This document shows positions 8,138-58,167 of a DNA stretch of 58,167 nucleotides, one piece after another (position 1 is the first letter of the stretch; every line of letters begins with the position of its first letter). Source of the DNA: Nitrospirota bacterium (lineage in GTDB: Bacteria > Nitrospirota > Nitrospiria > Nitrospirales > Nitrospiraceae); NCBI GenBank assembly GCA_004296885.1, contig SCVN01000006.1, positions 1 through 58,167 of the forward strand, read 5' to 3'. Both the position numbers and the translations under genes were made by a program. Below the pieces are notes generated by a model. That model made no database searches, was not told the origin of the DNA, and worked only from the letters and a program-made list of their open reading frames with translations.

Positions 8138-9502
8138 TTTCCCCATCGCCGCCAGTGCCTCAAAATAGGCCGCCAACGCCTGCATCCCGCCGGACGCCTG
8201 CCCCCAATCGAAGTATTCGTTGGGCGCATGGTAGCCGTGCTCCGGCAGGCTGAGCCCCATGAAGATGATCGGCACGTGCCAGGCCCGCTGCATGGTCGTG
8301 ACCGCGCCGATCGAGCCCCCTTCCTTGATCAACGCCGGTGCCTTGCCGAACCCGGTTTTCATCGCGCGGCCGGCCGCCTCCGCGTAGGGCCCGCTGAACG
8401 ACCCCTTGAACGGCTGCAGCATCCCCTCCACCTCGACGCGCACATCGGGATTCCGCTCGGCGAGAAAGCGCGTGAAGAGGCGGCATATCTTCTCCGGTTT
8501 CTGATTCGGCACCAGACGCATGCTGACCTTGAGTTCCGCATAGCCGGGGACGATCATCTTGACGCCGGGGCCGACGTAGCCTCCCACCAGTCCGTGGACT
8601 TCGAACGTGGGCGCCGCCCAGATACGCCGCAGCACGTCGGCCGGGTCCTGAGTCCGCAGGGACCGGAATCCGTAGGCCTTCTTGAACCGCTCGACTCGGA
8701 ATCCCGAGGCGAGAAAGTTGTCGATTTCCTTCTTCGTGGGCGGCACCACGTCGGCATAGAACCCCGGAATCTTCACGCGGCCGCTCTGCGCATCCACGCA
8801 ATCGTTGACCAGCTTGCAGAGTTCCGTGAGAGGATTCCTGGCCGCCCCGCCGGTCACGCCGGAATGGGCGTCGGACTTGCCGGTCTTGAGCGACAGCCGG
8901 ACTCCCAGCGCCCCGCGCAGGCCGTAGGGCATGGCCGGCCGGCCCTTGGCGATCCAGATCGTATCCGACACCAGCACCGAGTCCGGTTTGTGGACGAGCG
9001 TGCGCTGTTTCAGCGCCTCGGCGAAATGCGGGCTGCCGATCTCTTCCTCCAACTCCCAGAGGAACCGGATATTGATCGGCGTACCCTGCTCGATCACATA
9101 GCGCGCCGCCAGCAGCGCCGTCAGCGCCGGGCCCTTGTCGTCGGTCGCGCCGCGCCCACGGTACAGACCCTGGTCCTTGCGAAAGGCAAACGGCGCCTGC
9201 TTCCATTCCGGCTCCTGCGCCGGCTGTACGTCCAGATGGTTGTAGACCAGGACGGTGGGATGGTGCTTGCCCGTCGTCCAGCCGCCCTCGACGACCGGAT
9301 AGCCGCTCGTTTCGATGATACGCGCCTCGGCGCCGGCGTCTTTGAGCAACTGGACCGCCAGCCTGGCGGTCTTGCGTATGTCCGCCGCGCGCGCCGGGTC
9401 CATGCTGATGGACGGCAGCTCCACCATCTCGGCCAACATGTGCTCGAAGCCGGGCCTGACGGCCTTAATGTAGGGGGCCATTTTCCGGTCGCGTCCGGTC
9501 AT
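8132..9502 (-). CDS. M20-family metallopeptidase (dipeptidase-like)
   Basis: A 456-residue zinc exopeptidase. Metal-binding motifs in order: VLVYNHLDVQP (His), RGRGATDDKGP (bridging Asp), WELEEEIGS (catalytic Glu pair) and LPEHGYHAPNEYFDW near the end. Residues about 200-320 form the lid/dimerisation domain. The family removes amino acids from peptides or acylated amino acids in the cytoplasm. Length is normal for the CPG2/DapE-like M20 dipeptidases. The gene is convergent with the upstream exported-protein gene. Confidence 0.9.
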   Translation of the reverse strand: MTGRDRKMAPYIKAVRPGFEHMLAEMVELPSISMDPARAADIRKTARLAVQLLKDAGAEARIIETSGYPVVEGGWTTGKHHPTVLVYNHLDVQPAQEPEWKQAPFAFRKDQGLYRGRGATDDKGPALTALLAARYVIEQGTPINIRFLWELEEEIGSPHFAEALKQRTLVHKPDSVLVSDTIWIAKGRPAMPYGLRGALGVRLSLKTGKSDAHSGVTGGAARNPLTELCKLVNDCVDAQSGRVKIPGFYADVVPPTKKEIDNFLASGFRVERFKKAYGFRSLRTQDPADVLRRIWAAPTFEVHGLVGGYVGPGVKMIVPGYAELKVSMRLVPNQKPEKICRLFTRFLAERNPDVRVEVEGMLQPFKGSFSGPYAEAAGRAMKTGFGKAPALIKEGGSIGAVTTMQRAWHVPIIFMGLSLPEHGYHAPNEYFDWGQASGGMQALAAYFEALAAMGKR

Positions 9503-49009: not shown

Positions 49010-49206
49010 CCCCGCTCCGTCAAGCCATCCGTGTGAGGCGAGGCTATTCGACACCGAGAGGATTCCCGCCGAGTCATTCACCGCCGTCCCGCCAACCGTT
49101 CGCAAGCCGATAGCCTTGACGCCAGTGGAAGCCTGATGCGCCATCATCATCTTGTGCACCCTACCGCGAGGGTCCCGTGCCCGGACGACATTTACGCCTG
49201 AAGCCG

Positions 49207-50856
49207 ATGCAAAGCACGGTATGGGCTCAGCTGGCCCGTGTCGCGCTCGTGATCGGCGTCGAGCGGCATATCCTGACGATCGTCGCGTCCTACGCGTTGG
49301 CCATCGGCCTCTTTTCTCTGGTCGTCCCGCTGACCGTGCAGGAACTCATCAACACGTTTGCCTTTGCGATCCAGCCGATCATGATCGTGACGCTGGCCCT
49401 GATCATGCTGGTCGGCCTGCTCTTCATCGGATTTTTCAGAGTCTTGCAGACCAGCGCCATGGAGGTACTCTTTCAGAGACTCTACACGCGCATTGCCATT
49501 GCAATGACGGAGCACCTTCCGCGAATCCGGGAAGAGGTCTTCGTCCCCAGCTATGCCAACTACTTCGGAGAGGCCGAATTGCTGCCGCGGGCGGTCATGG
49601 TCGTGTTGGTCGACCTGATCAATGTGACGATCTCCGGCACGACCGGCATGCTGATCCTCATCATGTATCACCCGTACTTTCTGCTCTACGACGCGGTCCT
49701 GTTGGGAGGGTTCGCGCTCGTCCTGATCGCCGCGGGGCAGGGCGGGGTGCGGGCCACACAGGTCGTGTCGCAGAGCCATTACGACCTTATGACGTGGATG
49801 CAGGATCTGGCCCGCAATCGCCTGCATTTCAAGGCGACGGAAAGCGCGTCGCTCCTGCTTCACAAAACCGACCGTCATCTGGATGCGTATCTGGCCGGGC
49901 GAAGAGCCCGGTCCGCCATCCTGACCTGGCGTCAGTATGTCGGCACGGTGGTATGGGAAGCCGTCTGCCACAGCGGCATGATCGGGGTGGGAGGGTGGCT
50001 GCTGGCGATCGGCCAAATCACCCTCGGCCAATTCGTGGCGGCCGAGGTGATCGTCAGCACGTTGCTCCTCAACCTCGATACGGTCACGCGCCGCATCTAC
50101 GCCGTGACCTATATTCTCACCTCCTTGGATGAGCTGACGCGCGTGCTGGCTCTTCCCAAGGACGATGTGCATCGCGAGGCCTCCCCCGTCCACCTGCCCG
50201 ACTCGGCCGTCTATGGTCTTCGTCTCACCGTCAAGGAGGTCGCCTTTGCTTATCCCGGCTCCGCCCCCTTGTTCTCGCACCTCAACCTGGACGTCGGGCC
50301 GGGCGAAAAGGTGGCCTGCCTGACCAACACCAGCTCGGGCAAGACCACATTGGCCTTGGTCTTGGCCGGCATCCATACCCCAACGGCGGGCGTCGTCCGT
50401 TACAACGACGTGGATGTGCGCGATCTGAACATGACCGCCCTCAACCGGTGCCGGGGCGTGGTGCTGGACTCGCATTTGTCCCTCTTCAACGGCACCGTGG
50501 AGGAAAACATCTCCCTCGGACGCTCGGCGATACGGTACGAAGACATCCAGTGGGCCTTGCGCTTCGCCGAGCTGGACGAGGAGGTGGAGGCCCTGCCGCT
50601 GGGTTTGCACACCCCGGTCCAGGCCGGCGGCAAAACCTTCACCTCCAGTCAGATTCTGCGTATCCTGGTCGCACGGGCCATTGTCACCCGCCCGCAGCTG
50701 CTGATCTTTGACGGCACCCTGCACAATATGGCGCCACGCTTGAGGCAGGTCCTGTTGCGGCGGCTCTGCTCAAAGGAAGAGTCGTGGGGCGTCATTTTTG
50801 TCTCCAATGACCCGGCCATCGGGGACCTCGTCGAGCGGAGTGTCGTTCTTTCCTGA
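49207..50856 (+). CDS. ABC exporter-like protein with degenerate ATPase
   Basis: A 549-residue half-transporter of the HlyB/type I secretion group: six transmembrane segments (about residues 20-300) and a C-terminal nucleotide-binding domain. All ATPase motifs deviate. Walker A is LTNTSSGKTTLA (first Gly lost); the signature is FTSSQILRILVARA instead of LSGGQ; Walker B is LLIFDGTLHNM with the catalytic Glu replaced by Gly; the H-loop His is Asn (FVSNDPAI). The frame is intact, so it is a conserved pseudo-ATPase rather than a dead gene. GTG 49177 is an alternative start. It is under sigma-54 promoter 1, upstream of the two-component genes. Confidence 0.85.
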   Translation: MQSTVWAQLARVALVIGVERHILTIVASYALAIGLFSLVVPLTVQELINTFAFAIQPIMIVTLALIMLVGLLFIGFFRVLQTSAMEVLFQRLYTRIAIAMTEHLPRIREEVFVPSYANYFGEAELLPRAVMVVLVDLINVTISGTTGMLILIMYHPYFLLYDAVLLGGFALVLIAAGQGGVRATQVVSQSHYDLMTWMQDLARNRLHFKATESASLLLHKTDRHLDAYLAGRRARSAILTWRQYVGTVVWEAVCHSGMIGVGGWLLAIGQITLGQFVAAEVIVSTLLLNLDTVTRRIYAVTYILTSLDELTRVLALPKDDVHREASPVHLPDSAVYGLRLTVKEVAFAYPGSAPLFSHLNLDVGPGEKVACLTNTSSGKTTLALVLAGIHTPTAGVVRYNDVDVRDLNMTALNRCRGVVLDSHLSLFNGTVEENISLGRSAIRYEDIQWALRFAELDEEVEALPLGLHTPVQAGGKTFTSSQILRILVARAIVTRPQLLIFDGTLHNMAPRLRQVLLRRLCSKEESWGVIFVSNDPAIGDLVERSVVLS

Positions 50857-50953: not shown

Positions 50954-52351
50954 ATGTTTAGGCCAATTCCAGAATCCACGCTCTTCCGCAGAATTCCCTA
51001 TCGTTTGATCGCCGCCGTCCTGCTGATCGTCGCACTGGTCGTGGCCGCCATGCTGCTCTTCAGCTTGGAGCAGGAAAAACTGCTCTTGCAGGGCGTCACG
51101 CAAGACCGGCCGGTTCCGGTTGAGTTGTTTCCAGCGCTCTGGCAGTCACGCCGCGATTTGATCGTGGTGACCGTGCTCATCTTTCTGGTCAGCGCGATCG
51201 GCCTGGCGGCGGCCATCACGTTCCTTCACTACGACAGCACCAAGCGGACACTGGAAGCGGTGAAAGGGCTGGCCCGCCATATCCTCGAGAGCATCCCGAC
51301 CGGCGTGCTGACGATCAATTGCAGCGGGGTGATTACCGCCGTGAATCCGACGGCCGAGGCGATCCTGAAGCGATGGTCCGCCGACTTGTTGGGCAATTCC
51401 TACGAATCCGCCTTTGCGAAGGGCGAAACGATTCGAGAGGTGCTCGACGATGCGCTCCGTCATCACCGACATGTGAGCCACAAAGACCTGTCCTATGAGA
51501 GTCAGGATCGGTCGCCTCGCACGATCCGTGTCAGCACGGCCGAACTGAGCGGAGACGACGGGCAACTCTCAGGGGTGATCCTGCAGGCCCAGGATGTCAC
51601 CGAATGGCTGGCCTTGGAGCAGCGGGTCCGTGTCGCAGACAAACTGGCGGCATTGCACACGCTCTCGGCCGGAGTCGCCCACGAACTCCGCAATCCCCTC
51701 AGCGCGATGGACTTGAATCTGCACTTGCTGGAAGAGGAGATGACAGCCAAAGCGCCCCTCCCCCCGCAGGCCGCGCACTACCTGCAGGTGCTGAACGCGG
51801 AATGTCGACGGCTGTCCGTCATCCTGGATAACTTCATGAAATTCGCCCGACCGGGCGCCGTCAGCCTTCATGACGTGAATATTGAGAAGCTCATCGCGCA
51901 CATTCTGGCGCTCATGCAGTTTGAGGCGGAGGAGCGGAAGATCCGGCTCGATCAGAGGGTGGAGGAAGGGTTGTCCCCCGTCATGGGCGATGAGACGCTC
52001 ATCGGTCAAGTCCTGGTGAATATCGTCGTGAACGCCTTTTACGCCATGCCGGACGGGGGCGTCTGCACGATCGCCGCCGGTCGGCGCGAGGCCAACGGGA
52101 AGCAATGGGTAGAGATCTCCGTGCAAGACACCGGCGTCGGGATCAAAACGGAAGCCCTCTCCCGGTTGTTCGAGCCGTTCTACACTACGAAGCCGACGGG
52201 GAGCGGACTCGGCCTGGCGATTGCCTACCGAATCATCCAGGATCATGCGGGGACGATCGACGTCACCAGCCGACCCGGACACGGCACCCTGGTCGCTATG
52301 AAGTTCCCGGTCGCCGTCGGACAGCCTCAACCCATCGTGGTGGGGTCATGA
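50954..52351 (+). CDS. Membrane sensor histidine kinase (partner of the NtrC-type regulator)
   Basis: A 465-residue kinase with two transmembrane segments (about 17-37 and 73-93) bounding a short periplasmic loop of about 35 residues. A PAS domain follows (HILESIPTGVLTINCSGVIT), then HisKA with phospho-His in SAGVAHELRNPLSAMDLNLH and HATPase (NIVVNAFYAMPDGG, DTGVGIKTEA, GSGLGLAIAYRII). The tiny sensor loop suggests sensing within the membrane or by PAS. The stop overlaps the start of the regulator gene (ATGA), so it is the cognate kinase. Confidence 0.93.
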   Translation: MFRPIPESTLFRRIPYRLIAAVLLIVALVVAAMLLFSLEQEKLLLQGVTQDRPVPVELFPALWQSRRDLIVVTVLIFLVSAIGLAAAITFLHYDSTKRTLEAVKGLARHILESIPTGVLTINCSGVITAVNPTAEAILKRWSADLLGNSYESAFAKGETIREVLDDALRHHRHVSHKDLSYESQDRSPRTIRVSTAELSGDDGQLSGVILQAQDVTEWLALEQRVRVADKLAALHTLSAGVAHELRNPLSAMDLNLHLLEEEMTAKAPLPPQAAHYLQVLNAECRRLSVILDNFMKFARPGAVSLHDVNIEKLIAHILALMQFEAEERKIRLDQRVEEGLSPVMGDETLIGQVLVNIVVNAFYAMPDGGVCTIAAGRREANGKQWVEISVQDTGVGIKTEALSRLFEPFYTTKPTGSGLGLAIAYRIIQDHAGTIDVTSRPGHGTLVAMKFPVAVGQPQPIVVGS

Positions 52352-53706
52352 AGCAGGCGGCAGACATCCTCGTCGTCGATGACGAGGTAAACATTCGAAA
52401 CGCGCTCGCGACGATGCTCGAAAAGAAAGGGCACCGGGTGCGCGGGGTAGGGACGGGGGAAGAGGCGCTCGATCAACTGGAAGCCGCTTCGGCGGACTTG
52501 GTGATCACCGACCTCAGAATGCCGGGGATCGGCGGCATCGAGTTTCTGCGCCGCCTCAAGAACACATGGCCGGACACGGAAGTCCTGGTCATGACCGCCT
52601 ACGGGTCGATCGACACCGCTGTCGAAGCCATGCGCTCGGGCGCCTACGATTATCTTGCCAAGCCCATCGACCGCGAGCGCTTCTCCGTCGTCGTGGAGAA
52701 GGCGCTGGAACACCACGCCCTGGCGAGCGAGAACAAGCAGCTCCGGGACCGGCTTGAAACCAGGGTGCGCTTCGACCGGATGGTCGGCGAAAGCGAGCCC
52801 CTGCAGGGCGTCTACAGACTGGTTGAAATGGTGGCGGGAAGCGATGTCACCGTGCTGGTCACGGGAGAGAGCGGCACCGGCAAGGAGCTGGTCGCCCGTG
52901 CAATCCATCACAAGAGCCCGCGCGCGGCCGGGCCGTTCGTGACGCTGAACTGCGGCGCCCTTCCCGAAAACCTGCTGGAGAGCGAGCTGTTCGGCTACGA
53001 GAAGGGCGCCTTTACCGGGGCCGCCGGCACGAAAGTCGGCCGGTTCGAGCTGGCCGACGGCGGCACCCTCTTCCTCGACGAGGTCGGCGAGTTGTCCTTG
53101 AAGTCGCAGGTGGACTTCCTGCGCGTGCTCGAAACCAAGGAGTTCCGCCGCCTGGGCGGGACCCGGTTGGTGAAAGTGGACACCAGGATCATCGCCGCCA
53201 CGAACCGAAACCTCGAGCAGGCGGTCGCGGAAGGACGGTTTCGCGAGGACCTCTACTACCGCCTCAACGTGGTGCCGATACACCTGCCGCCGCTGCGGGA
53301 TCGCGCGGAAGACATCGCCCTCATGGTCGACAGCTTCCTCCGCGAATTTGCGGCCCGGCACCAGCGCGAACCGCAAGAGGTCTCCCGCGAAGCGCTCCGG
53401 CTCCTGCGCCTCTACGCCTGGCCCGGCAACATCCGGCAGCTGCGCAACGTGATCGAGCGACTGGTGGTCACGGTGCGGGAGAAGACGATTCAGCCGGAAC
53501 ATCTGCCCGAGGAGGTCCAGGCGAGCCGCGAAGGAGCCCGCACGATGATCGTCGCGCTGGGCACGCCGCTGGACGAGATCGAGCGGGACGTCATCCGGCG
53601 CACGCTGGCCGAGGTCACAAATCACCGGGAACGGGCCGCCAAGCTGTTGGGGATCAGCCTGCGGGCCCTGCAGTACAAGATCAAGGAATATGGCATCAAA
53701 GACTGA
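52348..53706 (+). CDS. NtrC-family sigma-54 response regulator
   Basis: A 452-residue regulator: receiver (ILVVDDEVNIRNALAT, Asp in LVITDLRMPGIGG, Lys in YLAKPIDRERF), AAA+ domain with Walker A GESGTGKELVARAIH, intact GAFTGA loop, Walker B GGTLFLDEVGEL, and C-terminal Fis helix-turn-helix (NHRERAAKLLGISLRALQYK). It should activate sigma-54 RNA polymerase when phosphorylated. Two near-identical sigma-54 promoters lie 3.6 kb upstream and 0.3 kb downstream, making this the likely activator of both. Confidence 0.95.
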   Translation: MKQAADILVVDDEVNIRNALATMLEKKGHRVRGVGTGEEALDQLEAASADLVITDLRMPGIGGIEFLRRLKNTWPDTEVLVMTAYGSIDTAVEAMRSGAYDYLAKPIDRERFSVVVEKALEHHALASENKQLRDRLETRVRFDRMVGESEPLQGVYRLVEMVAGSDVTVLVTGESGTGKELVARAIHHKSPRAAGPFVTLNCGALPENLLESELFGYEKGAFTGAAGTKVGRFELADGGTLFLDEVGELSLKSQVDFLRVLETKEFRRLGGTRLVKVDTRIIAATNRNLEQAVAEGRFREDLYYRLNVVPIHLPPLRDRAEDIALMVDSFLREFAARHQREPQEVSREALRLLRLYAWPGNIRQLRNVIERLVVTVREKTIQPEHLPEEVQASREGARTMIVALGTPLDEIERDVIRRTLAEVTNHRERAAKLLGISLRALQYKIKEYGIKD

Positions 53707-54027: not shown

Positions 54028-54043
54028 TGGCATCCGACTTGCT
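54028..54043 (+). promoter_or_regulatory. Sigma-54 promoter 2
   Basis: TGGCATC-CGAC-TTGCT, two mismatches from the consensus, with invariant GG and GC. It shares 17 of 18 bases with promoter 1 over GGCATNCGACTTGCTCTA. The first gene begins 45 bp downstream. Confidence 0.8.
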
Positions 54044-54087: not shown

Positions 54088-54363
54088 ATGGAGTATCTGA
54101 GCGTCGCCGTCGGCGAGCAGCAGCGCCTGCTGCTCTGGCTCCCGGATCGTGACCGGGTCGTGCGGATGCACCCCGAGAGTTCGCGAGTCTGGGCGACGCA
54201 GACGCCCTTTCGGGACTGGACCGGAGCCGTGGTGACGCCGGAGGACGGTGAACGGTTTCTGGAAGCCGCCTTCGACCATCTGGTCCTGCGGGGACTGACG
54301 CCCCACTGGGAATACGTCGGACGCTGCGGGATCGATCAGCCCGACTTCCTGGAAGAAGCCTGA
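54088..54363 (+). CDS. Small protein A1 of the oxidoreductase-like cluster
   Basis: A 91-residue protein with ATG 54088 preceded by CGAGGACC. It begins MEYLSVAVGEQQRLLLWLPD and contains EDGERFLEAAFDHLVLRGLTPHW. It is a paralogue of the protein at 55502-55777 (shared pattern DGxxFLxAxxDHLxLRGxxxHW). First gene after sigma-54 promoter 2. Function unknown; probably a subunit or assembly factor of the cluster. Confidence 0.7.
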   Translation: MEYLSVAVGEQQRLLLWLPDRDRVVRMHPESSRVWATQTPFRDWTGAVVTPEDGERFLEAAFDHLVLRGLTPHWEYVGRCGIDQPDFLEEA

Positions 54364-54387
54364 CTCCCACTGAGGCGGCACATTCTC

Positions 54388-54642
54388 ATGACGTACGACG
54401 ATTATTCTGCACGCCGCCGCCGGTTGCACGAAAGCGTGGCGCTGTGTCCGACCGATCTCGCCGTCCGTTGCGAATTGGCGGAATGTCTTGAGGCGGAGGG
54501 GGCGACGGACGACGCGCTGCTCCAATGGCAGCAGGTCCTGGCTCACGATCCGAACAGCCTGAAAGCCTGGGAAGGGGTGGCGCGCTGCCGGCAATGCGCA
54601 CCGGGTACGGCAAGTCTGAGAGTAGACAACCGACGACGCTGA
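54388..54642 (+). CDS. Small TPR-like protein
   Basis: An 84-residue protein resembling one or two tetratricopeptide units: LHESVALCPTDLAVRCELAE, CLEAEGATDDALLQWQQVLA and HDPNSLKAWEGVARC. Three of its cysteines are at helix ends. It lies 24 bp after small protein A1 and 25 bp before the CODH-beta-like gene, so it belongs to the same operon. A protein-interaction role is inferred. Confidence 0.7.
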   Translation: MTYDDYSARRRRLHESVALCPTDLAVRCELAECLEAEGATDDALLQWQQVLAHDPNSLKAWEGVARCRQCAPGTASLRVDNRRR

Positions 54643-54667
54643 GAGCGTGAGACACATGGGGAGGAGC

Positions 54668-55354
54668 ATGACCGCACACAACACAGAGTCATCCGAACGG
54701 ATCATCAACGTTGGGCCGGCGGGATTCCATCCGCCGTCTGCCATGGAGCTGGGCGTCACCATTCCCGATTCAGGGCAGGGGCTGCTGTATGGGCGCCACG
54801 CGCCGGACGACGAGGTGATCAAGGAAGCCGCGCGGCAGTTGCTGACGCGCAAGAACCCCACGATTTTTCCAGGGCCCCTGTACTTGTGGGCGTGGCATCC
54901 GGAATGGATCGCCAAGGGCCAGGCGCTCTTGAGGCTGGCGGCCGAAATTCCAAACGTGATGATCATTCCGATGCCGGACTACCGTCCGAAGTATCCCAAG
55001 ATCGACCCGGAAGAAGGCATCAACCCGAATCACCCGAACCTCACGATTTGGGCCAACAAGATCGAGGTGGCCCTGTTTATCGGCATCCACTGTCACTACG
55101 CCAACCTGGCCTTGCGGATGGTGCGGGCGGGGACGAATTGCCTCACCGTGGCCTTCTGCCACGATATCCATGAAGACGCCATGGTGAGTCTACAGGACCT
55201 GGACGTAAAGAAGATGGACCACGTGATCGACATCTTCCGGACGGTCCGCAAAGAATTGGGGATTACGATGCCGAAGGACGGCAAGACGGTCCGTCTGACG
55301 GGCACGCAAATCAAGGCGAATCATGGAGTGGAGCGGGTCTCCCCTCTCGGTTGA
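54668..55354 (+). CDS. CODH beta / ACS epsilon-like protein, copy 1
   Basis: A 228-residue protein. The core from about residue 45 fits PF02552 (CdhB/ACS epsilon-type, a Rossmann-like fold): EVIKEAARQLLTRKNPTIFP, IPMPDYRPKYPKIDPEEGIN, NHPNLTIWANKIEVALFIGI and HCHYANLALRMVRAG. It is a paralogue of the 192-residue protein at 57269-57847. In bacteria with a multi-subunit 2-oxoacid:ferredoxin oxidoreductase similar proteins are extra subunits; the role is inferred. GGGGAGGA precedes the ATG. The C-terminal tail is unlike copy 2. Confidence 0.75.
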   Translation: MTAHNTESSERIINVGPAGFHPPSAMELGVTIPDSGQGLLYGRHAPDDEVIKEAARQLLTRKNPTIFPGPLYLWAWHPEWIAKGQALLRLAAEIPNVMIIPMPDYRPKYPKIDPEEGINPNHPNLTIWANKIEVALFIGIHCHYANLALRMVRAGTNCLTVAFCHDIHEDAMVSLQDLDVKKMDHVIDIFRTVRKELGITMPKDGKTVRLTGTQIKANHGVERVSPLG

Positions 55355-55415
55355 CCGCTGACGGGCTGCGGGCGGCCGGCACGACGGACCCCATGACAGA
55401 AGGGAGGTGAGGAGC

Positions 55416-55493
55416 GTGGCGACGAAAAAGAAGGGTGGAACGAAGAAGACGACCAAGAAGAAGGTTTCGACGGGGCGCAAGAAGAAAAAGTAG
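55416..55493 (+). CDS. 25-residue lysine-rich peptide
   Basis: A GTG at 55416 preceded by AGGGAGGTGAGGA opens a short frame: VATKKKGGTKKTTKKK then VSTGRKKKK and stop. Fourteen of 25 residues are Lys or Arg. It lies between the CODH-beta-like and A2 genes in the operon. The ribosome-binding site is among the strongest in the window. Function unknown; a charged linker or nucleic-acid-binding peptide is possible. Confidence 0.55.
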   Translation: MATKKKGGTKKTTKKKVSTGRKKKK

Positions 55494-55501
55494 GTGCAGG
55501 G

Positions 55502-55777
55502 ATGAAGAGCAGAGCTGGCGTGGAAATGCTCGTCTTGCCGCTTCCGAGAGGGCGGAGAGCGGTCGTGCTGTTTGATCCAGCCACCAACGCCGTTACCACG
55601 AATCATGCCGGGTTGATGACGACGGTGTTTCAGAAGGGCGTGAAGGATCTGGATGGCGGCCTCCTCTTGCCTCGCGACGGGCGGGCTTTTCTGTCGGCGC
55701 TGTACGACCATCTCTTTTTGCGGGGCTACCATGTGCATTGGCTTGGAGCCTGCACCATCTCCAACCGGATGGGCTAG
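55502..55777 (+). CDS. Small protein A2, paralogue of A1
   Basis: A 91-residue protein: VEMLVLPLPRGRRAVVLFDP, then DGRAFLSALYDHLFLRGYHVHW. It has the same length and end pattern as A1 (91 residues). The ATG follows 8 bp after the lysine-rich peptide. A duplicate pair of such proteins together with a duplicated CODH-beta-like subunit suggests the operon arose by repeat of a two-gene unit. Function unknown. Confidence 0.7.
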   Translation: MKSRAGVEMLVLPLPRGRRAVVLFDPATNAVTTNHAGLMTTVFQKGVKDLDGGLLLPRDGRAFLSALYDHLFLRGYHVHWLGACTISNRMG

Positions 55778-55801
55778 CAAAGGGAGTGCGCCCCTCGTCC
55801 C

Positions 55802-57235
55802 ATGTCTCCATTCACCGCATGGCTCCCGATCAGACCGGAACGTATCTCCGACTTGGTGCTGAAGATGGTCGGCACGGGCACGGCCGGCCTGATCAACGGC
55901 GTGACGGCCTTGGAATATGCCCTGACCGAGCAAGGGCTGCGAGTCATGGCGCAAACCAGCGGACCGGCCTGGGGGAGATCGGGTTCGGACGTGCGGCTGC
56001 GTGTGTCGACGGAGCCGATCACCTCGATGGGAAGCGGGTGCGACGTGGTGGCCTGCGTGGACCGCGCGGCCCTTCAGCAGCAGTGGCCCGACCTGCAGCC
56101 GGGAAGCGTGTTCGTCCATGAGGCCGGCGGCTTCGGCGCCGAAGCGGCGGCGGTTCCGGACGGCGTGATTACGTATGCCGTCCCCTTTTCGGATCTCCAC
56201 CGGCGGTGCGGCGCCCGATTTTCGGGAAAGGGGTTCATCGCCGCCGGGGTGCTGAGCAACTTGCTCGGGATCTCCGTCCAGCCCGTCCGTGACCGGATCC
56301 GTCCCCGCGTCGGGCTCCGGTACTTCGACGCCGGAGTCGGATTTGCCTCCTCGCACTTGGAGAAGCGGGACATTTATGTCACGCCGAGCCCGGCCAGCGC
56401 GCCGCGCCAGATCCTGCTGGACGCCCAGCAGGCCCTGCTGCTGGGATTGACGATCGGAGGTTGCGACTGTCGGACCGCCTGCGCACAGTCTCTGGATCGC
56501 ACCCCCCACGAATGGGTGGCGGAGCACGTGAAGGCCGCCCGGGAGCACGTCTCGACGCTGGCCCATCGAGAGACGTCATGTCTCCAGGTCGATCAAGGAG
56601 CCGACGGCGAGGTCATGGCGTTGCTTGGTGCGGCTGATCCGTCCGCTGTGCCGGAACAGGGCGCGAACCGGCCTCGTGTGCTCGTGGCTGCGGACATGCT
56701 GGATGCCATCCGGCTGGTGGGACTCGCGCGCCGGGCAGGACGAGCCAGCAGCGGCGCGGTACGGGTCGTGGTCGATGAGATCCTGGCGGCCCGCCAGCAG
56801 AGCGTGCCGGTGGAGCAGCTCGCGGACATCGTCGCGGGGACCACTCATGACCCGGCGAACAAGGTTTCTCCGCCTCCTCCGTCTTTGGCGTGGTGGCCCA
56901 GCGCCGAATGGGACCATGAGCCGGGCGCCACGATCGGCTATGTGGCCTGGGGCGCGGCACAGGGCGTGGTTCGCGAAGCCGTCGCCCTGTGCCGGAGCTT
57001 CGGATTGAACGTGGCGGCGCTCTATCCCAAAGTGCTCTGGCCGGCGCCGACTCAGGAGTTGGAGACCTTTGCCAAGACCGTCGGACGCGTCATCATCGTC
57101 GAGCCCAATCGTGCCGGCCGCTATACGCGGTTTATACGGAACTGGACATCCCTGCCGGCTGTGACCGTGATGCCGGAACCGGGGCGAGCGCTGACGCCCA
57201 TGGACATTTTCATGCGCGAAGGATTGGGAGCGTAG
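55802..57235 (+). CDS. 2-oxoacid:acceptor oxidoreductase gamma-alpha fusion lacking most of the pyrimidine domain
   Basis: A 477-residue protein. Residues 1-190 fit the gamma domain (LVLKMVGTGTAGLINGVTAL in place of GxGGQG, then TSGPAWGRSGSDVRLRVS, ARFSGKGFIAAGVLSNLLG). Residues 375-460 fit the C-terminal domain II of alpha subunits (GYVAWGAAQGVVREAVALC, ALYPKVLWP, IIVEPNRAGRYTRFIRNW). The piece between (about 185 residues) is shorter than the usual pyrimidine domain (about 240), and only ILLDAQQALLLGLTIGGCDC resembles its start. A GGCDCRTAC cysteine cluster occurs there. Thiamine-diphosphate catalysis by this chain is doubtful. Confidence 0.75.
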   Translation: MSPFTAWLPIRPERISDLVLKMVGTGTAGLINGVTALEYALTEQGLRVMAQTSGPAWGRSGSDVRLRVSTEPITSMGSGCDVVACVDRAALQQQWPDLQPGSVFVHEAGGFGAEAAAVPDGVITYAVPFSDLHRRCGARFSGKGFIAAGVLSNLLGISVQPVRDRIRPRVGLRYFDAGVGFASSHLEKRDIYVTPSPASAPRQILLDAQQALLLGLTIGGCDCRTACAQSLDRTPHEWVAEHVKAAREHVSTLAHRETSCLQVDQGADGEVMALLGAADPSAVPEQGANRPRVLVAADMLDAIRLVGLARRAGRASSGAVRVVVDEILAARQQSVPVEQLADIVAGTTHDPANKVSPPPPSLAWWPSAEWDHEPGATIGYVAWGAAQGVVREAVALCRSFGLNVAALYPKVLWPAPTQELETFAKTVGRVIIVEPNRAGRYTRFIRNWTSLPAVTVMPEPGRALTPMDIFMREGLGA

Positions 57236-57268
57236 CAACCTCATAGCCTTATTAAAGGAGTCGCTTGA

Positions 57269-57847
57269 ATGAAACCCTATGAAATGACGATCGGTCCGGA
57301 AGGGTATTTGGCCTCCGCAGTATCGACGCGAGGCGTCGTCGGGCCGTCAAAGGGAGAAGGATTGGTCATGGGCCGGGTCGTACCGGAACAGCAGGCGATC
57401 GAGGAGGCGGCCCGGCGCCTGCTGCAGGCCAAGAATCCGACGATCTTTCCGGGTCCGCTGGTGCTCTGGGCCTGGAATGAACAGGCTTCGCGCGAAGCCA
57501 AGGTCGTGAAGGCCTTGGCGGAGGCGGTACCGGCAAAAGTCATCCCGATGGCCGATTACCGTCCGAAATATCCCAAAATTATTCCGGAACGGGAAATCAA
57601 CCCGAATCATCCGAACCTGACGATCTGGCAGAACAAGATCGACGTGTGCCTGTTCGTTGGAGTACACTGTCACCAGTCCAACATTGCGCTCAAGATCATC
57701 CGGGGTGGGACCGCCTGTTTCACCATTGCGCTGTGCACGTTCAACGGAGACGATGAAGCACACGTGACCATCCGGGATTTGACCGCCGACACGATTCAGC
57801 GCATTGTGGATGCGGTGCACCGGCAGAAACGATCCCGACCGTCGTGA
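57269..57847 (+). CDS. CODH beta / ACS epsilon-like protein, copy 2
   Basis: A 192-residue PF02552-type protein: AIEEAARRLLQAKNPTIFPG, VIPMADYRPKYPKIIPEREI, NHPNLTIWQNKIDVCLFVGV and HCHQSNIALKIIRGG. It is about 50 percent identical over the core to copy 1 by eye. AAAGGAG lies 9 bases before the ATG. It follows the gamma-alpha fusion by 33 bp and may pair with it, as copy 1 may pair with the first half of the operon. Confidence 0.78.
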   Translation: MKPYEMTIGPEGYLASAVSTRGVVGPSKGEGLVMGRVVPEQQAIEEAARRLLQAKNPTIFPGPLVLWAWNEQASREAKVVKALAEAVPAKVIPMADYRPKYPKIIPEREINPNHPNLTIWQNKIDVCLFVGVHCHQSNIALKIIRGGTACFTIALCTFNGDDEAHVTIRDLTADTIQRIVDAVHRQKRSRPS

Positions 57848-57897: not shown

Positions 57898-58167
57898 ATG
57901 CGATATCTCATTGCTGCAATGATTGCCCTTATGATGGGAGCGGGCGCGCCCGTCTGGGCCTACGAAGAGATCACGGTGACCGACGGCGGGACATTGACCG
58001 GGCAGGTCACGCTCGACGGGGCCGTGCCGAAACCGAAGGGCTACAACCTGACCACCCTGCCCGACCCCCTCTATTGCGGGCGCATTTCCGACGGGCAAGG
58101 CTGGCGCATCCTGCAACCGTTCCAGGTCGGGCCGGCGGGCGAGTTTCGCGAGCTCGTGGTCTATCTG
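57898..58167 (+). CDS. Exported protein, 5' part (cut by window edge)
   Basis: The first 90 residues: a signal peptide (MRYLIAAMIALMMGAGAPVW, cleaved near A-Y) and a beta-rich start (ITVTDGGTLTGQVTLDGAVP, then CGRISDGQGW). This pattern, a GTLTGQVxLxGxxP opening, occurs in periplasmic carboxypeptidase-regulatory-like or cupredoxin-like proteins. AGAGGA precedes the ATG. It is co-directional with the cluster, 50 bp after copy 2. The remainder lies outside. Confidence 0.7.
   Translation, partial: MRYLIAAMIALMMGAGAPVWAYEEITVTDGGTLTGQVTLDGAVPKPKGYNLTTLPDPLYCGRISDGQGWRILQPFQVGPAGEFRELVVYL

Follow-up and report, generated by a model that had tools for sequence, protein, structure and literature searches.

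The 2-oxoacid:ferredoxin oxidoreductases (OFORs) of bacteria that use the reductive tricarboxylic acid (TCA) cycle include two O2-tolerant, five-subunit enzymes, POR and OGOR, whose delta subunits belong to the family PF02552 (PMC10052474, PMC3578206). About half of Nitrospirales genomes carry Ehr, a membrane complex described as being of unknown function (PMC12342949, PMC10284858), and the source of low-potential electrons for the reductive TCA cycle in nitrite-oxidising Nitrospira has also been described as unknown (PMC8407350). The subject of this report is a short operon of a Nitrospirota bacterium of the family Nitrospiraceae, at positions 54088-57847 of a stretch of 58,167 nucleotides (assembly GCA_004296885.1, contig SCVN01000006.1, referred to as contig C6), the whole of which is called the window. 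The operon encodes two PF02552 proteins, E1 and E2, and between them GA, a fusion of OFOR gamma and alpha parts. It is very probably a decapitated OFOR, descended from a complete module of deltas and the two-subunit enzyme KorAB that lay inside an Ehr operon, and the remnant is very probably held under purifying selection.

With the five-subunit POR and OGOR of Hydrogenobacter, Aquifex and Nitrospira (PMC10052474, PMC8115632) the operon has in common the PF02552 deltas, a gamma domain and alpha domain II; unlike those enzymes it has no beta subunit, no epsilon ferredoxin and no thiamine-binding part of domain I, and its gamma and alpha parts are joined in one chain. Compared with the two-subunit OFORs of the KorAB type (OGOR structure 6n2n), GA is a direct derivative of KorA, in which gamma and alpha are likewise fused, whereas the catalytic part of domain I and the whole of KorB are missing and two deltas foreign to ordinary KorAB are present.

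Cassette genes and their OFOR relatives

The term cassette is used here for the block of E1, GA and E2 together with its companion small genes (window 54088-57847, all on the + strand), which consists of the following six genes.

54088-54363, + strand: sp1, small protein of unknown family, 91 aa; paralogue of sp2
54388-54642, + strand: small TPR protein, 84 aa (PF13428, 27.4 bits)
54647-55354, + strand: E1, PF02552 protein, OGOR delta paralogue; start GTG at 54647, or ATG at 54668 by homology
55502-55777, + strand: sp2, small protein of unknown family, 91 aa; conserved directly before GA
55802-57235, + strand: GA, 477 aa, core-less KorA (gamma domain, alpha domain I remnant, alpha domain II)
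57269-57847, + strand: E2, PF02552 protein, POR delta paralogue

GA matches the gamma domain PF01558 (32.1 bits, cut-off 27.4) and alpha domain II, PF17147 (32.9 bits, cut-off 27), both scores lying just above the curated cut-off, and profile search found no match in it to PF01855, the thiamine-binding alpha domain I. Its relationship to KorA extends from end to end (residues 1-477 against 1-578; hhalign probability 100, E 3e-67), and the OGOR structure 6n2n is matched by GA at both ends. Within this alignment both ends of domain I are retained, the YPITP motif is replaced, the thiamine-contacting AED segment is deleted, and a second stretch, ahead of domain II, is also missing. Neither the operon nor its continuation on contig C3, described below, encodes a thiamine-binding beta subunit (GDG...N, PF02775/PFO_beta); likewise, the operon has no ferredoxin-type subunit, the delta of four-subunit and epsilon of five-subunit OFORs, and none was seen downstream. 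Because GA aligns with KorA over its whole length, its thiamine-binding core is deleted and KorB is gone, the operon reads as an OFOR that has been decapitated. Three cysteines of GA, Cys80, Cys227 and Cys397, are conserved in 23, 23 and 22 of 23 GA rows, respectively, and are absent at those columns in KorA, while a fourth, Cys221, is common to most KorA. These four highly conserved cysteines possibly form a site for a metal or an Fe-S cluster, acquired once the catalytic core had gone.

An earlier note on this DNA had described the operon at 54088-57847 with a TPR protein, two paralogous small proteins, two PF02552-like subunits and a gamma-alpha fusion, and had remarked that the thiamine-binding beta and Fe-S subunits of an OFOR were missing. 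This description holds, all six genes being found there on the + strand and sp1 and sp2 sharing 35% identity over 83 aa (E about 5e-9). No normal full-length alpha emerged from the alignment, in which part of domain I is deleted, and no beta or ferredoxin-type genes lie beyond the right edge, where the locus appears to continue across a gap into HyfBCEFGI.

As the earlier note had proposed to check, complete oxidoreductase clusters exist elsewhere in the genome: contig C8 carries a POR-like cluster in the order delta-alpha-beta-gamma-epsilon and an OGOR-like cluster in the order beta-gamma-epsilon-delta-alpha, the first labelled from the presence of the N. marina POR alpha peptide TPSFFTGSEVIK and the second by elimination. 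A third OFOR cluster (locus L008; G000 contig C18, around 21-25 kb) consists of gamma, alpha and beta genes beside cytochrome c genes, and may be the four-subunit POR that has been reported from N. marina and is said to be rare in Nitrospira.

E1 and E2 are clear members of PF02552 (1e-37 and 129.9 bits for E1, 7.5e-41 and 140.1 bits for E2, against a cut-off of 21 bits), and each resembles the delta of a different cluster of its own genome, E1 being 59% identical to that of OGOR and E2 53% identical to that of POR. The same pairing appears in a maximum-likelihood tree of 55 deltas, in which there are long branches among the non-Nitrospiraceae rows: E1 groups with OGOR deltas (support 100/99), and E2 falls in a clade (100/98) that takes in Ehr-linked deltas of other families and is sister to the POR deltas. 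Delta phylogeny and family test together place both proteins among the delta subunits of five-subunit POR and OGOR, and their identity between genera, 80-90%, compares with 81-88% for the canonical deltas. Neither protein found anything among PDB sequences up to E = 1, by single-sequence or by profile search. Judged by tree and identities, the two genes are OFOR deltas and not components of a carbon monoxide dehydrogenase (CODH); the Pfam name of the family is misleading, and the label CODH-beta that the earlier note had attached to them has to be given up.

A CODH has nevertheless been proposed in a comparable setting. On the published reading for Candidatus Nitrospira nitrosa, the PF02552 genes would be part of a CODH feeding a Hyf-type hydrogenase and thereby supporting life on CO, a reading consistent with the name that Pfam gives to PF02552 and with the report of a CODH encoded right beside the hyf-like complex (PMC5596200). 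For the cassette such a module is scarcely credible and was rejected, since the model for the anaerobic CODH catalytic subunit, TIGR01702, matched in none of 11 genomes, cassette-bearing ones included, but does match in control genomes, E1 and E2 group with OFOR deltas, and the large subunit of the neighbouring complex is without nickel ligands.

The Ehr locus and its KorAB form

Contig C6 ends at the right edge of the window, inside the gene for an exported protein. Residues 1-97 of this protein are encoded on C6, and contig C3 encodes the last residues, 285-316, at its right end. Relatives with unbroken contigs have these genes side by side, and we infer that C6 and C3 adjoin in this genome across a gap of about 560 bases. 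On C3 the exported protein is followed by an acetate-transporter-like gene (PF01184) and then by hyfB, C, E, F, G and I, which are 65-85% identical to their orthologues at locus L061; the latter, when run against profiles, matched hydrogenase-4 and complex I families. No nickel-ligand cysteine is present at either CxxC motif in seven aligned HyfG large subunits, and HyfI keeps the proximal Fe-S cysteines (CxxC, GDC, GCPP) in this genome and in related sequences. By its subunit families and these motifs, the downstream complex is Ehr (HyfBCEFGI), related to complex I and without nickel ligands. A group 4 [NiFe] hydrogenase was considered and rejected on the missing ligands of the large subunit.

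The exported protein had been called unrelated in the earlier note, and it proves to be a conserved member of the same locus in relatives. The note's suggestion of an accessory or electron-transfer module with another partner is likely to be of the right kind, although the likely partner, Ehr, lay hidden behind the contig break and the descent from KorAB was missed.

The evidence for that descent comes from other families of the class Nitrospiria. At four loci in four genomes (L117, L118, L119 and L131), full-length KorA and KorB stand in the Ehr operon at the position of GA, with two delta genes alongside and HyfB next. The KorA of these loci has domain I with the motif YPITPAT, and the TPP-binding domain of KorB, TPP being thiamine pyrophosphate, shows GDG...N. 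In the three loci that were scanned, KorA scores 176-184 bits with PF01855 and KorB 88-91 bits with PF02775. On its domains and motifs, KorA-KorB at the Ehr locus is a complete, motif-intact two-subunit OFOR.

A different state is found at locus L120 of genome G129, from another family, where an open reading frame at 8454-8936 (- strand) matches only alpha domain II (PF17147, 28.7 bits) and is flanked by a PF02552 delta on either side. There is no gamma and no KorB, and the Ehr genes are several kb away, with a sensor histidine kinase (HK) and a response regulator (RR) between. This arrangement looks like a reduction of the same module that arose independently and went further. Reduction in both the GA lineage and L120 suggests that the catalytic parts were probably lost more than once, the deltas and alpha domain II being retained. 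In family f9 a small sp2-like protein follows the second delta and precedes hyfB (L119:6572-6823, L131:7046-7246 (-)), and sp2 may thus be as old as the locus.

In Nitrospiraceae the order of the locus is HK-RR-(E1, TPR, sp2)-GA-E2-exported-HyfBCEF(F')GI. The parts of it that flank the cassette in the window are these.

50954-52351, + strand: PAS-type sensor histidine kinase (HK), 465 aa; conserved first gene of the locus
52348-53706, + strand: sigma-54-dependent response regulator (RR), 452 aa, AtoC/NtrC-like; start by homology
54028-54042, + strand: candidate sigma-54 promoter TGGCATCCGACTTGC, 46 bases before sp1; one mismatch to the -24/-12 consensus
57898-58167, + strand: N-terminal portion of the conserved exported protein (full length about 316 aa), truncated at the contig end

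HK has an orthologue at this position in almost every locus that extends far enough, and RR is 75-88% identical across Nitrospiraceae loci. Directly before HK, at window 49177-50856, lies a gene for a membrane-fused ABC transporter ATPase, a position taken by other genes in L056 and L061. As a sigma-54 promoter candidate, TGGCATCCGACTTGC is suggestive only: the pattern, with up to two mismatches allowed, shows no enrichment over the window as a whole, and while L050 and L049 have a similar site at an almost identical offset, and upstream sites occur also in L051, L059, L075 and L082, none was found in seven other loci. Among the small genes, sp1 was found elsewhere at only one locus, of the same genus (L050/L058), and a homologue of the TPR protein is present in most Ehr loci, with or without a cassette. 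The AlphaFold2 model of sp2 reached a pLDDT of 84 and found no confident match to its fold in the PDB (best Foldseek E 0.73, best VIA-align Z 4.1). The gene between the exported protein and hyfB on contig C3 is of the GPR1/FUN34/YaaH (acetate transporter) type (L069:15740-16393, - strand); a gene of this type is found at that position also in L140 and L142, with a fragment in L077.

Distribution, selection and possible roles

The survey covered 147 Nitrospiraceae genomes, one per species, most of them draft assemblies, and calls of loss are uncertain where genomes are fragmented. GA is present in 21 of them, spread over 8 of 22 genera, and the Ehr large subunit HyfG in 77; both occur together in 16 genomes, and GA occurs without detected HyfG in 5. 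Three of these five (G403, G411 and G433) are fragmented, with contig or locus ends near the cassette, and prove little. Another, G414, has at one locus an internal deletion (L136:3298-4527, - strand) that took out hyfB-hyfG, so that the 3' part of hyfI now abuts a fragment of the gene for the exported protein, with E1-TPR-sp2-GA-E2 intact upstream; this genome is 5% contaminated. At eleven Ehr loci without GA, the genes E1, GA and E2 are missing together from an order that is otherwise alike, consisting of HK, RR, TPR, sometimes sp2, the exported protein and the Hyf genes, a few of the loci lacking some of these. Absent as a set from otherwise similar Ehr loci, the cassette is therefore an optional block.

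Where it is present, GA is open and free of internal stops at every locus, one copy being truncated by a contig end. Pairwise dN/dS, obtained by a counting method with saturated pairs left out, is 0.25-0.40 for GA and 0.03-0.18 for E1 and E2, values by which the cassette is under purifying selection and not simply decaying. A decaying remnant, that is, a former OFOR module that has lost its core and is now being eliminated, would fit the missing catalytic core, the patchy spread over 21 of 147 genomes, the loss or breakage of E1 in two genomes and the fast divergence of GA, which is only 36-50% identical between most genera. It is nonetheless improbable, given the full-length reading frames, the low dN/dS of all three genes and the conservation in 22-23 of 23 GA rows of three cysteines that KorA does not have.

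A second possibility is that catalysis persists in trans, GA combining with a beta subunit and a domain I borrowed from POR or OGOR to make a third, hybrid oxidoreductase. The beta subunits of POR and OGOR are indeed present, but GA cannot provide its own half of the thiamine site, and among the OFOR betas of eight cassette-bearing genomes none is closer than 30-33% identity to the KorB of the Ehr loci. An active hybrid is thus very improbable, and a KorAB rebuilt in trans was rejected on the same low identities.

The role favoured here is that of an adaptor, itself non-catalytic, that links Ehr to the oxidoreductases of the cell. GA, E1 and E2 would form one complex in which E1 still recognises an OGOR-type core and E2 a POR-type core, with GA bound to the cytoplasmic arm of Ehr. 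In this way the catalytically complete OGOR and POR, which are encoded elsewhere and have ferredoxin-like epsilon subunits, would be brought to the proximal Fe-S subunit HyfI, where the docked enzymes would take the place of the ferredoxin-type subunit missing from this Ehr operon. Ehr could then exchange low-potential electrons with OGOR and POR, at the expense or to the gain of ion-motive force. An adaptor of this kind would account for the retention of OFOR-specific deltas next to an electron-transport complex with no ferredoxin-type subunit. Complex formation, contact with Ehr and recruitment of POR and OGOR are all read from sequence, and the mechanism is put forward tentatively, the balance tipping slightly towards doubt; the decapitated OFOR and the adaptor role, taken together as the best explanation of the whole, are about equally apt to prove right or wrong.

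Several observations weigh against the adaptor. Ehr is found without GA in 61 of the 77 genomes that bear it, and so does not need the cassette, and the cassette may conversely act without Ehr, as suggested by G105 and G414, whose cassette loci are not followed by Ehr genes and in which no HyfG was detected. E1 is a frame-broken remnant in G065 (L060:10600-11100, - strand) and was not found at the G145 locus (L056), GA and E2 being intact in both. The ancestral form pairs both deltas with a single KorAB, and each delta need not recruit a different enzyme. Finally, GA, E1 and E2 are without any recognised motif for a redox cofactor, and the single-chain AlphaFold2 model of GA, built from four sequences, has a pLDDT of only 34 and is unusable.

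One of these points is more readily accommodated if E1 and E2 are condition-specific spare deltas, or chaperones, of the oxygen-exposed enzymes OGOR and POR, with GA a scaffold for partly assembled subunits and the proximity to Ehr a matter of shared regulation or history. The retention of the cassette in genomes without detected Ehr is better explained in this way than by an adaptor, and the tree, which pairs E1 with the OGOR delta and E2 with the POR delta, and the evolution of both proteins as slowly as the canonical deltas agree with it. Shared regulation alone, however, is insufficient to explain why deltas of the E2 clade lie directly before HyfB in several families, and a core-less KorA would be an odd chaperone. 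This alternative is a serious one, if on the whole rather unlikely.

The adaptor can also be extended to a bolder proposal, in which the Ehr of Nitrospirota would be a 2-oxoacid oxidoreductase that pumps ions in the manner of complex I, ancestrally fed directly by a resident KorAB or itself feeding it. In cassette-bearing Nitrospiraceae the cell's own O2-tolerant POR and OGOR would have taken over the function of the KorAB core, docking through E2 and E1 on a GA scaffold equipped with a new cysteine site, possibly for a metal or Fe-S, and electrons from quinol would be pushed into CO2 fixation without free ferredoxin. So far-reaching a scheme is distinctly unlikely.

Relation to described Ehr systems

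The Ehr described from Nitrospirales is the same HyfBCEFGI membrane complex without nickel ligands (PMC12342949, PMC10284858), but the published accounts deal with the core only, and neither the OFOR-derived cassette nor the KorAB form was found described in them. In the open literature more generally, no description of an OFOR linked to Ehr was found, whether as cassette or as KorAB-Ehr locus, subscription papers, including the original description of Ehr, lying outside the search. The occurrence of KorAB in the Ehr operon of four genomes, together with its core-less derivative in Nitrospiraceae, offers a concrete and testable link between Ehr and carbon metabolism.

Closest in position to the cassette is the "CODH" of Candidatus Nitrospira nitrosa (PMC5596200), which one strain carries next to hyfBCEFGI and two others lack, much as the cassette is present at some Ehr loci and absent from others. 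There it was read as a CO dehydrogenase and taken to indicate use of CO, whereas the sequences analysed here are OFOR delta paralogues. From the published description and the sequences of 11 other genomes, the two are probably the same cassette under a wrong label, and the published inference of CO metabolism in this organism is suggested to rest on a misleading family name. A further parallel is the complex of formate dehydrogenase and Ehr proposed for Margulisbacteria and Saganbacteria (PMC6349859), in which an Ehr core is likewise combined with a soluble redox enzyme as a possible electron input; the soluble enzyme is in that case formate dehydrogenase, and in Nitrospiria an OFOR or its core-less remnant.

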